Translations under genes and position numbers: made by a program
The notes under the pieces: model-generated
What the model was told of the DNA's origin: nothing
Seen by the model: only the letters and a program-made list of their open reading frames with translations
Database searches by the model: none
Part shown: in pieces, positions 39,631 to 44,175 of the stretch
Numbering within the stretch: the stretch's first letter is position 1
Layout of the letters: the number at the start of each line of letters is the position of its first letter
Assembly: GCF_002940665.1 (NCBI RefSeq)
Contig: NZ_MIGY01000002.1
Location: 1-64,000, forward strand
Reading direction: 5' to 3'
Length of the DNA: 64,000 bases
From: Xanthomonas arboricola
GTDB taxonomy: Bacteria; Pseudomonadota; Gammaproteobacteria; Xanthomonadales; Xanthomonadaceae

Positions 39631-39828
39631 TACGTTCGCAGCGACCAGCCCGTGCAGCAGCTGCGCTTACAGCAGAAGCAATGACCGCTGGCACAGTTTG
39701 ATTCATGAAGCTCTGTTCGCGTCTGGTTAAAGCTTGCATTCACCTCAGCCGATAACCCAGTCTGATCGCTAGCGCGACGTCGGATTCGCCTGGCGCCGCT
39801 GCCGATTGCATTAGAGCTCGGGGGGCGC

Positions 39829-40515
39829 ATGAGGACGCAGTGGTTCAAACGGATCGGCCCGGTTGCGGGGTTGCTGGCGTCCTGCGCCGCAAGCTGCGCA
39901 TCGGCAACGCCGATCAGCGTGACCGTGGTCGATGGCAACGGCATGTTGGTCGATGCGGTGGTGAGTCTGGAGCCGGCTCGTGCGGTTGCCGCCGGGGCGC
40001 CCAGGACCGTCGAGATGGACCAGGTCAATTCGCAGTTCGTGCCTGCCGTGCTGGCGGTGCGCACCGGCACCCTGGTGCGGTTTCCCAACAGCGACCAGAT
40101 TCGCCATCAGGTCTATTCGTTCTCAGCCGCAAAGCGGTTCGAGTTGCCGCTGTTCCAGGGCAGCACTGCGGCCCCGGTGCGCTTCGACCAGGCTGGTCTG
40201 GTAACGGTGGGCTGCAATATCCATGACTGGATGCTGGGCTATATCGTGGTGATGGACACGCCGTATTTCGGCAAGACCGGCAGCGACGGTCGGGTACAGC
40301 TGGATGCGCCGGCAGGCAGCTACACGCTGCGGGTCTGGCATCCGCGCATCAAGGGCGCCATGCTTGCCGAACCGGTGGCGCTTGCGCGCGAGGCTGTGCA
40401 ACGGCGGGTGACCTTGCAGACCACCGGCGTCGCGCCAGCGGTGCCACCGGATGCGCGCGTGCGGGCGCTGCAGGACAAGTTCCGTCGCGCCGACCCGAAG
40501 ACGCCGAAGCCATGA
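39829..40515 (+). CDS. Periplasmic cupredoxin-like protein (methylamine-utilisation type)
   Basis: The 228-residue precursor has a signal peptide (cut after CASA, about residue 26). The plastocyanin-like domain places a type I copper set at His-93 (IRHQVYSF), Cys-129, His-132 and Met-135 (GCNIHDWM). It also contains the PNSDQIRHQVYSF and GYIVVMDTPYF segments seen in proteins annotated as methylamine-utilisation cupredoxins. A carboxypeptidase-regulatory-like stretch follows (GRVQLDAPAGSYTLRVWHP). No methylamine dehydrogenase genes are here, so the name does not imply that function. It overlaps the next gene by ATGA. I infer a copper-binding redox or sensor role for the operon. Confidence 0.85.
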   Translation: MRTQWFKRIGPVAGLLASCAASCASATPISVTVVDGNGMLVDAVVSLEPARAVAAGAPRTVEMDQVNSQFVPAVLAVRTGTLVRFPNSDQIRHQVYSFSAAKRFELPLFQGSTAAPVRFDQAGLVTVGCNIHDWMLGYIVVMDTPYFGKTGSDGRVQLDAPAGSYTLRVWHPRIKGAMLAEPVALAREAVQRRVTLQTTGVAPAVPPDARVRALQDKFRRADPKTPKP

Positions 40516-42875
40516 AGGCCATGCGCCTGCATACCCGGATCGCGGCCTTTCTGGTGCTGGTCGTGCTCGCCACGCAGGCATTGACCTTCATCGCGGTGCA
40601 GGTCGCCACCGAGCGCAGCGTCAAGGCGCAGCTCGACGAGGAAATGCGGATCGGCGAGCGCGTCTGGCAACGCATCAATCTGCGCCGCGACGAACAGCTG
40701 ATGCAGTCGGCCTCGGTGCTGGCCGACGATTTCGGTTTTCGCGCCGCCGTGGCCAGCGGCGATGTGCCAACCATGCAATCGGCATTGCGCAATCACGCGG
40801 CGCGCATGTCGGCCCAGACCGCGCTGCTGCTGGCGCCGGATGGCGAATTCTTGACCGGGCTCGCCGATCTGCCGCAAGCCGAGCAGCTGCGCGCGGTGCA
40901 GACCCTGCTGCAGCAGGCGCAGCGCGATGGGCACGCGGTCGGCGTGGTCGCATTGGACCGACGCATCGTGCGGCTGGCGGTGGTGCAGGTGCTGGCACCG
41001 AGCCGGGTAGGCTGGATCGCGATCGGCAACGAATCCGGCGACGGTCTCGCGCAGGATTTCCGTTCCACCACCGGGCTGGATGCGACCTTCTTCACCGACG
41101 GTCCGCCGGTGCGCGTGCTGGCCTCCACCCTGGAGCCGGCGGCGCGCGCCGAATTTGCGCAGCAGTTGCCGGCCGCTCAACGCGCGCAGGGTGCGGCGGT
41201 TGCGTTGACCCTGGCCGAGTCGCGTTACCTGGTCAAACTGCGGTCGATCCAGGGCGACAGCCATGTGCGGGTCGCGCTGCAGGCCTCGCTGGATCGCGCG
41301 GTGGAGCCCTACCGCGTCCTCAGATTGCGCATCCTGCTGTTGGCCGGTCTGGCGACGGCTGCGGCGCTGGGTGTGGCGATCTTCCTGGCGCGCAGCGTCA
41401 GCCAGCCGGTCGCACAACTGGTACAGGCAGCACGGCGCATCCAACGCGGCGATTATCACACTGTGGTCCAGGTGCCACCCGGGCGCGAACTGGCCGAGTT
41501 GGCCGACAGCTTCGGGCGCATGCAGCAGCAGATCGCCAGTCGCGAGCAGCGCATCCTGCATCAGGCGCGCCACGATGCCTTGACCGGTCTGCCCAATCGC
41601 ATCTGGTTGCTGGAGCGGCTGAAGGAGGTGGTGGACCAGACCGTGGCTTCCGGCGGCACGGCGGCGGTGTTGATCCTGGATCTGGAACGCTTCAAGGAGC
41701 TCAACGACAGCCTGGGCCACGATTTCGCCGATCAGATCCTGATCGAGGCGGGCCGCCGCCTTGCCGACGTAGTGCAGCAGCCCAATCTCGTCGGGCGGCT
41801 GGGCAGCGACGAATTCATGGTGGTGGTGGCGCAGACCGACGTCACCACCGTGCAACAGGATGCGCAGCGCTTGCTGCTGCAGTTGCGCCGCCCGCTGGCG
41901 CTGCCGCAGGCGCGCATCCAGCTGGAAGCCAGCATCGGCATCGCCCTGATTCCCGAACACGGCGCCGATCCGGACACCTTGTTGCGCCGCGCCGACATCG
42001 CACGTCGCCAGGGCGGCAACGCCACCATCATCGGCGCCAGCGTGTATCGTCTGGGTCAGGACGAGCAGCATCTGCGCCGGTTGCGCCTAACCGGCGATCT
42101 GCGCCAGGCCATCGGCGGCAATGAGCTAACCTTGCGCTTTCAGCCCAAGATCTGCCTGCGCAACGATCGCGTCGAACAGGTGGAGGTGCTGGTGCGCTGG
42201 CACCATCCGGCGCTCGGGGCGATCGGCCCGGACGAATTCATTCCCTTGGCCGAGCACTCCGGCGTGATCCATCCCTTGACCCGCTTCGTGCTGGACGAGG
42301 CGCTACGCTGCCAGGCGCAATGGCGCAGGCAGGGGCTGGAGCTGGGCATGGCGATCAATCTCTCCGCACTGGATCTGTCCGACCCCGGCTTGCCGGATTA
42401 TGTGCGTGGCCGTCTGGAGCATCACGCGGTGCCGGCGCAGTCGGTCACCCTGGAACTGACCGAAAGCGCCTTGATGCGCGATGTCGAGTCCGCCCTGCAC
42501 ATGCTGCATCAGCTGCGCAGCGTTGGCGTACGTCTGTCCATCGACGACTTCGGCACCGGCTACTCCTCGTTGGCGCAGCTCAAGCGCATGCCGGTGAACG
42601 AATTGAAGATCGACAAGAGCTTTGTCATGCAGCTGGCCGAAGGCACCGACGATGCGTTCATCGTGCGCAGCACGATCGATCTTGGACATAACCTCGGCTT
42701 GAGCGTCATCGCCGAAGGCGTAGAAAGCGCCACTGCGCTGAGCCTGCTGCGCGGTTACGGCTGCGACATGGTGCAGGGCTATCTCTATTCGCCCGCATTG
42801 GAGGAGGTGCCGCTGATCGCCTGGTGCATGCGTCAACTCGATCTGGCGCCGACGGCGCAAGCAGGGATGCATTGA
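40512..42875 (+). CDS. Membrane GGDEF/EAL protein with periplasmic sensor and HAMP
   Basis: The 787-residue protein has a membrane helix (about 8-30), a periplasmic sensor region (30-275) and a second helix (about 277-297). HAMP (298-350), GGDEF (about 360-520) and EAL (about 535-780) domains follow. The GGDEF signature reads GSDEF (residues 431-435), so cyclase activity is doubtful. The EAL motif reads EVL (558-560), a variant found in active phosphodiesterases. The other catalytic positions are present: NLS, ELTES, DDFGTGYSS, KIDKSF, AEGVE and QGY. I infer a c-di-GMP phosphodiesterase tuned by a periplasmic signal. Overlaps on both sides tie it to the cupredoxin-like protein and DUF3034 genes. 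Confidence 0.93.
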   Translation: MKAMRLHTRIAAFLVLVVLATQALTFIAVQVATERSVKAQLDEEMRIGERVWQRINLRRDEQLMQSASVLADDFGFRAAVASGDVPTMQSALRNHAARMSAQTALLLAPDGEFLTGLADLPQAEQLRAVQTLLQQAQRDGHAVGVVALDRRIVRLAVVQVLAPSRVGWIAIGNESGDGLAQDFRSTTGLDATFFTDGPPVRVLASTLEPAARAEFAQQLPAAQRAQGAAVALTLAESRYLVKLRSIQGDSHVRVALQASLDRAVEPYRVLRLRILLLAGLATAAALGVAIFLARSVSQPVAQLVQAARRIQRGDYHTVVQVPPGRELAELADSFGRMQQQIASREQRILHQARHDALTGLPNRIWLLERLKEVVDQTVASGGTAAVLILDLERFKELNDSLGHDFADQILIEAGRRLADVVQQPNLVGRLGSDEFMVVVAQTDVTTVQQDAQRLLLQLRRPLALPQARIQLEASIGIALIPEHGADPDTLLRRADIARRQGGNATIIGASVYRLGQDEQHLRRLRLTGDLRQAIGGNELTLRFQPKICLRNDRVEQVEVLVRWHHPALGAIGPDEFIPLAEHSGVIHPLTRFVLDEALRCQAQWRRQGLELGMAINLSALDLSDPGLPDYVRGRLEHHAVPAQSVTLELTESALMRDVESALHMLHQLRSVGVRLSIDDFGTGYSSLAQLKRMPVNELKIDKSFVMQLAEGTDDAFIVRSTIDLGHNLGLSVIAEGVESATALSLLRGYGCDMVQGYLYSPALEEVPLIAWCMRQLDLAPTAQAGMH

Positions 42876-43747
42876 TGCACAGGTGGCGAGGCACGTTGCT
42901 GTCTGCGGCATTGGCCGGGCTGGGCCTCCCACCCGCGGCGGCGGTCGCAGGCGAGGGGCGTCTGCTCGCCACCGGTGGCGTGTCCATGATCGAAGGCAGC
43001 AGCGGTGGCGGCATCGTGCCGTGGGCCACGCTGTCGGGATACGGCACCCGCGACGAACTCGGCAGCGTGCTGTTCGCCACGCATGTGGACAGCGGCGACT
43101 ACCGGCTCGACGTGCAAGGTGCCGCGCTGACGGTCGGTAACCGGCTGGAACTTTCGCTGGCGCGGCAACGTCTGGATCTGGGTACCCTGCAGGATCGGCT
43201 GGGTCTGCCGTGGAATGCGCTCGGCCAGGATGTGTTCGGCGCCAAGCTGCGGGTCTACGGCGATCTGGTCTACGGACATGCGCCACAGGTCAGTGTGGGC
43301 GTGCAGTACAAGCGCCTGCGCGATGGCGCGCTGCCGCTGGCGATTGGCGCGCGCGACGATCACGGCACCGACGTCTATGTCAGCGCCAGCCGTCTGTTCC
43401 TGCAGGCAGCGGGCGGCTATCAACTGCTGCTCAACGGCACGTTGCGCGCGACCCGCGCCAATCAGACCGGCTTGCTCGGTTTCGGCGGCGATCGTCGCAA
43501 CGCCCGTCGGCTGGTCGGCGAAGCCAGCGCCGCCGTCGTGCTGTCGCCGGCGTGGGTGGTCGGCGTGGAGTATCGCGACAAACCCGACAACCTCGGCTTC
43601 GCCCGCGAGCAGGCCTGGGGCGATGCATTCGTGGCCTGGTTTCCCAGCAAGCATGTGTCCCTGACCGCGGCATGGGCCGAGCTTGGCGACATCGCCACGC
43701 TCATCGACCAACGCGGCCCCTATCTTTCCCTGCAGGTGGCGTTCTGA
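42875..43747 (+). CDS. DUF3034 family outer-membrane-like protein
   Basis: The 290-residue precursor has a signal peptide (cut near AVAGEG, about residue 25). The mature sequence begins GRLLATGGVSMIEGSSGGGIVPWA and continues as alternating beta strands ending in LSLQVAF. A terminal Phe and this amphipathic pattern fit an outer membrane beta-barrel. The overall sequence matches the uncharacterised DUF3034 family. The start ATG overlaps the GGDEF/EAL gene stop as TGATG, and the stop overlaps the globin gene in the same way. Confidence 0.82.
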   Translation: MHRWRGTLLSAALAGLGLPPAAAVAGEGRLLATGGVSMIEGSSGGGIVPWATLSGYGTRDELGSVLFATHVDSGDYRLDVQGAALTVGNRLELSLARQRLDLGTLQDRLGLPWNALGQDVFGAKLRVYGDLVYGHAPQVSVGVQYKRLRDGALPLAIGARDDHGTDVYVSASRLFLQAAGGYQLLLNGTLRATRANQTGLLGFGGDRRNARRLVGEASAAVVLSPAWVVGVEYRDKPDNLGFAREQAWGDAFVAWFPSKHVSLTAAWAELGDIATLIDQRGPYLSLQVAF

Positions 43748-44175
43748 TGAATCGACGGCTGCGCTGGCCCTTGCTGTGCATGCTGGCGCTGATGAGTGCC
43801 TGCGCCACCACGCAGCCGCGCCCCACGCTCTACGACGAGCTCGGCGGGCAGGCCGGTATCGAAGCGCTGGTGGAAACCATGCTGTCGCGCATCGCCGACG
43901 ACCAGCGCATCGTCGACAAGTTCGCGCGCGTCAACATCGTGATGCTCAACGAGCGCCTGGTGCAGAAGTTCTGCCATGTCGCCGACGGCCCGTGCCCGGA
44001 TACCGCCAAGTCGATGCAGCAGGCGCACGCGCACCTGGCCATTCGCGAAGGCGACTTCAACGCGCTGGTCGAGGATCTCAACTGGGCGATGGATCAGCGC
44101 AAGATTCCGCGCCGCACGCAGAACCGTCTGCTGGCGCGGCTGGCGGCCATGCACGGTGACATCGTCAATCACTGA
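43747..44175 (+). CDS. Group 1 truncated haemoglobin, predicted lipoprotein
   Basis: The 142-residue product opens with a lipoprotein signal: hydrophobic LLCMLALMSAC with the acylated Cys at residue 19. The globin domain follows (LYDELGGQAGIEALVETML). The proximal haem His is probably His-94 in MQQAHAHLAI, by alignment with the mycobacterial HbN pattern. FNALVEDL then matches helix G. Two further cysteines lie at 76 and 83. Truncated globins usually bind O2 or NO in the cytoplasm. A lipid anchor would put this one in the periplasmic space, next to the cupredoxin-like and DUF3034 partners. It is the last gene of the four-gene operon. Confidence 0.85.
   Translation: MNRRLRWPLLCMLALMSACATTQPRPTLYDELGGQAGIEALVETMLSRIADDQRIVDKFARVNIVMLNERLVQKFCHVADGPCPDTAKSMQQAHAHLAIREGDFNALVEDLNWAMDQRKIPRRTQNRLLARLAAMHGDIVNH

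Follow-up and report, generated by a model that had tools for sequence, protein, structure and literature searches.

Gene content of the operon

The window analyzed here, that is, the whole stretch of 64,000 nucleotides from Xanthomonas arboricola (contig NZ_MIGY01000002.1, positions 1 to 64,000), contains at positions 39829 to 44175 four genes that overlap one another and code for an exported cupredoxin (CUP), a membrane protein with GGDEF and EAL domains (referred to as EAL), a member of the DUF3034 family and a truncated globin. This arrangement had been pointed out in a first-pass annotation made from the sequence alone, and our analysis confirmed it and added a promoter-like motif upstream. 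The features are as follows.

39728..39755, + strand: sigma-28 (FliA)-type promoter TAAAGCTT-N12-GCCGATAA, a motif match kept in Xanthomonas
39829..40515, + strand: CUP, exported cupredoxin with copper ligands H93, C129, H132 and M135
40512..42875, + strand: EAL, inner-membrane dCache_3-HAMP-GGDEF-EAL protein with a degenerate GGDEF motif (GSDEF), probable phosphodiesterase of cyclic di-GMP (c-di-GMP)
42875..43747, + strand: DUF3034, predicted 12-stranded outer-membrane beta-barrel with a signal peptide and a C-terminal Phe
43747..44175, + strand: GLB, group-1 truncated globin with a lipobox, F8 His94, Cys76/Cys83 and an apolar distal pocket

Each product was compared with its aligned relatives. 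Of the named Xanthomonas loci, the alignments include only L031, L049 and L057 (L063, L067, L068 and L070 were left out), and alignments A2 and A3 exclude EAL rows of fewer than 700 and DUF3034 rows of fewer than 220 profile positions (L108). Export signals were called throughout with a lenient in-house heuristic.

The four copper ligands of CUP are invariant in all 41 aligned sequences, each of which has an export signal, and the structure model shows a cupredoxin fold nested in a carboxypeptidase-regulatory/transthyretin-like domain. By this ligand set (His, Cys, His, Met) and fold, CUP is predicted to be a type-1 (blue) copper cupredoxin. A narrower assignment to amicyanin was rejected, with a score of 16.7 bits against the NCBIfam equivalog cut-off of 110.2.

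EAL phosphodiesterases depend on a catalytic set made up of ExL, N, E, DD, K and E. In the EAL protein these residues are all in place, and E558, L560, N616, E648, D678, D679, K699 and E735 are invariant in 37 of 37 relatives (Q755 in at least 90%). The GGDEF motif is intact in 9 of the 37; in the window it reads GSDEF instead of an intact GG[DE]EF, which does not fit a diguanylate cyclase. With invariant catalytic EAL residues and a mostly degenerate GGDEF, the natural reading is a phosphodiesterase, and the protein is likely to degrade c-di-GMP. A DFGF stretch is conserved in its periplasmic dCache_3 part, where the best-kept His, Cys or Met is His95, found in 25 of 37 sequences, which makes metal binding by this domain unlikely. 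Metal sensing is therefore probably delegated away from the sensor domain, as far as residue conservation can tell.

The DUF3034 model has 12 strands of at least eight residues between residues 62 and 289. The last residue is Phe, Tyr or Trp in 37 of 46 sequences (Leu in eight and His in one), and 47 of 50 have a signal-like N terminus. Signal peptide, even number of strands and hydrophobic or aromatic C-terminal residue are those of an outer-membrane beta-barrel, and the family is predicted to be one. The top structural match was FapF, at ca. 12% identity, with KdgM and COG4313 within 2 Z, and none of these matches was taken as a clue to function; many outer-membrane barrels score nearly alike.

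The globin belongs by profile to the group-1 truncated hemoglobins (HbN, PDB 1idr, E value 1.3e-23) and is the only Bac_globin (PF01152) match reported in the whole genome (43747-44175). Export signals were called in 50 of 50 homologs, 34 of them lipobox-like. The F8 His, which is the heme ligand, and Cys76/Cys83 are invariant in 47 of 47 sequences, and the distal pocket is apolar: B10 is Leu, Val, Ile or Met in 46 of 47 (Asn in one), E7 is Leu, Phe, Val or Ile and E11 is Leu, Phe or Val in all 47. HbN holds O2 through B10 Tyr and E11 Gln, neither of which is found in any of the 47, so that the pocket speaks against an O2 protein of the HbN type. Apolar pockets in other heme sensors favor nitric oxide (NO) or CO over O2, and for this reason we prefer NO or redox state as the putative signal of the globin. 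Among 18 other group-1-like globins, B10 Tyr is present in nine, E11 Gln in eight and both cysteines in three, while the nearest relatives are apolar. We accordingly gave up the idea of an apolar pocket peculiar to the operon, since it marks the clade rather than the operon alone. A first control set of globins looks group-2-like (11 of 13 alignable, all 11 with B10 Tyr). PDB matches to the designed Ika proteins were set aside, as they cover 39 residues and include no qualifying domain.

Most of the first-pass description of the parts has therefore held: the periplasmic copper set; the membrane GGDEF/EAL protein with a periplasmic sensor, now with intact EAL catalytic residues and a mostly degenerate GGDEF; the probable outer-membrane barrel, borne out by prediction; and the truncated globin with a lipobox, which is an exported group-1 heme globin.

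Distribution and gene order

Among 398 sampled Pseudomonadota genomes, 39 carry DUF3034, and they represent 28 of 213 genera. None of the 14 well-known genomes used as controls has it. In all 39 the globin gene adjoins it on the same strand, with a gap of at most 245 bases to the aligned start of the globin. CUP was found near DUF3034 in 33 genomes and both CUP and EAL in 30. By the first-pass annotation, its reading would fail if the genes were seldom together elsewhere; with CUP and EAL standing beside DUF3034 and the globin in 30 of the 39 genomes, it is not refuted on this count. The commonest order was that of the window, CUP-EAL-DUF3034-globin (23 of 39), followed by CUP-EAL divergent from DUF3034-globin (six), DUF3034-globin-CUP (two), and DUF3034-globin-CUP-EAL and CUP-DUF3034-globin (one each). 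The set also occurs on annotated plasmids of Caballeronia (DUF3034-globin-CUP-EAL) and Novosphingobium (CUP-EAL divergent from DUF3034-globin), and thus reaches the beta- and alphaproteobacteria.

The globin subfamily follows DUF3034 closely. A profile of the operon globins scored above 130 bits in 41 of the 398 genomes, and DUF3034 is present in 39 of these; the next score, after a gap, was 93 bits, and the only further genomes near the profile were G154 and G328. The co-occurrence is extreme (Fisher 5e-52), but the profile was built partly from the globins of these same 39 genomes, so the informative part is the rarity of the subfamily outside them.

Some loci carry altered copies. A DUF3034 gene without its start lies beside an intact globin and looks like a decaying copy (L108:7676-8233), and genome G078 has a second broken copy (L109:7679-8161) that was not counted in the 39. 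On a Caballeronia plasmid, the EAL gene is reduced to a cache fragment (L110:9950-10363). In X. phaseoli ATCC 49119, EAL and DUF3034 form a single frame of 1073 residues, probably through a frameshift (L048:5595-8813). Three loci have a tandem second GGDEF-EAL gene upstream of CUP (L071:4768-7200, L072:11654-14047 and L078:11656-13746).

A sigma-28-type promoter in Xanthomonas

The site upstream of CUP has 15 of the 16 bases of the Escherichia coli sigma-28 consensus with a spacer of 12, the spacer in E. coli being 11. The form TAAAGCTT-N12-GCCGATAA is conserved across 31 aligned Xanthomonas upstream regions, and a score of at least 14 of 16 was reached by 28 of 32 Xanthomonas rows (of the other four, L052 lacks upstream DNA and L057, L058 and L060 are weak) versus 4 of 59 other rows. 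The strict pattern TAAANNNTN{11,12}GCCGATAN had one exact match reported in the genome of the window, which was the operon site. The operon carries a promoter-like motif of the kind typical of the sigma-28 regulon, and we infer that FliA RNA polymerase transcribes it in Xanthomonas.

A looser pattern gave 30 rows in the same genome (28 forward and 2 reverse), corresponding to 27 distinct places, against 14 rows (8 forward and 6 reverse) for a reversed-pattern control; the looser pattern shows a strand imbalance (28 versus 2). One of the 27 places is the operon, and the frames downstream of 20 others were examined in two sets, of which the first was picked for promising N termini (four places and the two minus-strand rows were left unscanned). 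Twelve of the 20 frames belong to motility or to c-di-GMP, namely fliD, fliS, a motA-type gene, three chemoreceptor-like genes, two EAL genes, two GGDEF genes, ycgR and the gene of a MinD/ParA-type ATPase, whose position directly before fliA led us to take it as FlhG. The remaining eight are a trehalase, a LysR, a gyrase-B-like protein and five without a Pfam match. The spacer of 12 seen at the operon recurs before fliS. The sites before ycgR, GGDEF and EAL genes (L268:1574-2368, L272:1556-2527, L279:1565-3025, L270:1534-3024 and L274:1564-2307) suggest a wider flagellar c-di-GMP regulon in this genome.

FliA itself scored above the cut-off in 35 of the 39 DUF3034 genomes. Within the class of the window the figures were 33 of 33, versus 32 of 39 hand-picked class controls that have no DUF3034 (P = 0.013), a weak comparison since kinship was not controlled. 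In X. oryzae, 6 of 10 GGDEF-EAL genes drop in rpoN1 and rpoN2 mutants, and fliA expression drops as well (PMC7970052); as reported in the part of that paper available to us, these data are consistent with a flagellar link without being specific to it. As to other regulators, FNR sites were found in 0 of 84 regions at up to one mismatch (0.4 in shuffles) and in seven at two mismatches (5.6 in shuffles), Fur sites in none of the 84, and the RpoN pattern in three of 84 at up to one mismatch versus 0.2 expected; a sigma-70 scan found nothing. To judge from these motifs, the flagellar link is firm in Xanthomonas and elsewhere only suggested.

An envelope-spanning sensor as the favored reading

We tentatively favor, with somewhat less than even confidence, the reading that the four genes are one unit, an envelope-spanning sensor that would lead to c-di-GMP breakdown and that in Xanthomonas would be made together with the flagellum. 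Anchored in the inner membrane with dCache_3 facing the periplasm, the EAL protein would, given its intact catalytic residues, hydrolyze c-di-GMP and favor swimming. The likely protein partner of dCache_3 is the periplasmic blue-copper CUP, as the pairing of their genes indicates. Mirror-distance correlations fit such docking, since CUP follows the periplasmic half of EAL best (rho of 0.53, compared with 0.41 to 0.44 for the other CUP pairings, 0.44 being the value for the cytoplasmic half). The DUF3034 barrel would lie in the outer membrane, with the globin tethered beneath, and would admit or present the stimulus. With its apolar heme pocket, the globin would bind NO or reflect redox state, and CUP would carry this state, as an electron or a ligand, to the EAL protein.

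Several observations weigh against this reading. The strongest mirror-distance correlations are those of DUF3034 with the cytoplasmic half of EAL (0.67) and with the globin (0.66), and all of these values were computed with the species tree still in and differ only modestly. The promoter is weak in the X. albilineans-like loci L057, L058 and L060, and among the 59 non-Xanthomonas rows, six score at least 13 of 16 (0 in shuffles) and eight pass a looser rule, for which shuffles predict 0.5 and a reversed string gives 2. Nine of the 39 DUF3034 loci are without the CUP-EAL pair, and six consist of DUF3034 and the globin alone, although five of these six genomes encode CUP elsewhere and one of the six loci (L092) keeps an upstream EAL gene of the same type. 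Finally, the CUP profile matches 86 of the 398 genomes, many of them weakly, and neither DUF3034 nor the globin was matched in any of the 28 stretches fetched around CUPs away from DUF3034 (CUP score of at least 81 bits). One obligate complex everywhere is thus unlikely.

An EAL gene is present in 15 of these 28 stretches, which makes CUP-EAL one module and DUF3034-globin another: the operon is composed of two separable pairs. Thirteen of the 28 contain an exported barrel-like protein of ca. 410 residues, from one homologous family, eight also with EAL and five without it (L165:2374-3612, L163:9078-10322, L150:4773-6005 and ten other CUP loci). This family is absent from DUF3034 loci, and in Pfam three scanned members gave weak porin or barrel matches and four gave none. 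The looser sigma-28 rule was passed by 6 of the 28 CUP-only loci versus 0.7 in shuffles. The promoter, the separable pairs and the combination of CUP-EAL with another barrel family are new with respect to the first-pass annotation. Two distant CUPs adjoin genes for MauG-type di-heme peroxidases (L167:4984-6629, by Pfam, and L168:5963-6936, by eye), with a protein partly matching the EAL sensor half nearby; such neighbors are a possible origin of the name "methylamine utilisation protein."

In its most far-reaching form, the envelope sensor would be a complete relay from heme to copper to c-di-GMP, active while the cell swims, in which the barrel lets NO or a redox-active molecule through to the globin and CUP is itself the protein ligand of the dCache_3 phosphodiesterase; in all its steps this is rather improbable. 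A copper sensor is also unlikely, if slightly less so. CUP would report periplasmic copper, its copper-loaded form docking on dCache_3 and switching the phosphodiesterase, with globin and barrel as a loosely coupled second function. The invariant copper ligands and the 15 stretches in which EAL accompanies CUP alone suit this proposal, which leaves unexplained why the globin goes with DUF3034 in 39 of 39 genomes; moreover, the scanned flanking genes encode no copper regulator but a 2-oxoglutarate oxygenase and a short-chain dehydrogenase, and the C-x2-H-x2-M site of CUP is of the plastocyanin-like kind typical of electron transfer.

We give an equally low probability to a secretion or transport system, where the barrel would move a substrate, globin and CUP would be redox helpers and EAL would tune c-di-GMP to the traffic. 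Against it, sequence identity to FapF is ca. 12%, many outer-membrane barrels score nearly as high, and the operon has no substrate gene. Detoxification of NO or radicals by globin and cupredoxin as an envelope redox pair, whose state EAL would sense secondarily, is the least probable: the invariant heme His and an apolar pocket compatible with NO agree with it, as does the fact that cupredoxins donate electrons to heme and copper enzymes, but the B10 Tyr and E11 Gln of HbN-type NO dioxygenation occur in none of the 47 globins and the operon has no reductase.

Comparison with known systems

Periplasmic partners of c-di-GMP enzymes and phosphodiesterases of the flagellar regulon are already known kinds. 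A copper protein, an exported globin and an outer-membrane barrel as a set of c-di-GMP partners were not found among the matches listed from the open-licence literature, a scope outside which most subscription journals fall, and within the same limits the first-pass suggestion of an undescribed system stands. The four-gene set is not named in the main text, so far as it was available, of the Xanthomonas papers looked up, and DUF3034 itself appears in the accessible parts of the open-licence literature only in a figure legend (other panels show DUF3037) and a row of a Streptomyces table. None of the terms copper, cupredoxin, outer membrane and truncated occurs in the available main text of a 2022 review on the stimuli of c-di-GMP (PMC8846402). 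For DUF3034, to which Pfam assigns no function, the analysis adds an exported-globin partner in every DUF3034 genome examined, a fold prediction and c-di-GMP as its likely pathway, together with motility in Xanthomonas. If the envelope sensor is real, c-di-GMP, the messenger that decides between swimming and settling, would respond directly to copper and heme chemistry in the envelope.

The closest parallels each share part of this design. In NspS-MbaA of Vibrio cholerae and similar systems, the gene of a periplasmic protein likewise lies beside that of a membrane-bound GGDEF-EAL protein whose sensor is periplasmic, whereas here a blue-copper protein takes the place of the partner and the operon also encodes an exported globin and what is predicted to be an outer-membrane barrel. 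YfiBNR/TpbB also has a single operon for c-di-GMP components of the outer membrane, the periplasm and the inner membrane, although from other families and with a cyclase output instead of what is probably a phosphodiesterase. PdeH (YhjH) of E. coli, an EAL phosphodiesterase controlled by the sigma factor of the flagellar genes, stands alone, while here a membrane sensor has envelope partners. HbN (PDB 1idr) has its family and F8 His in common with the operon globin, which differs in being exported, in its Cys76/Cys83 pair and in being without B10 Tyr and E11 Gln. In globin-coupled sensors, a heme globin is tied to c-di-GMP turnover as a domain of the enzyme, to go by the parts of the sources available (PMC5549716, PMC10882959), and not as a separate exported truncated globin. 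Finally, in Salmonella a periplasmic redox system, DsbA/DsbB, acts via the GGDEF-EAL protein STM3615, according to the portion of the study available (PMC4143323); there the chemistry is that of Dsb thiols, and here it would be that of copper and heme proteins.

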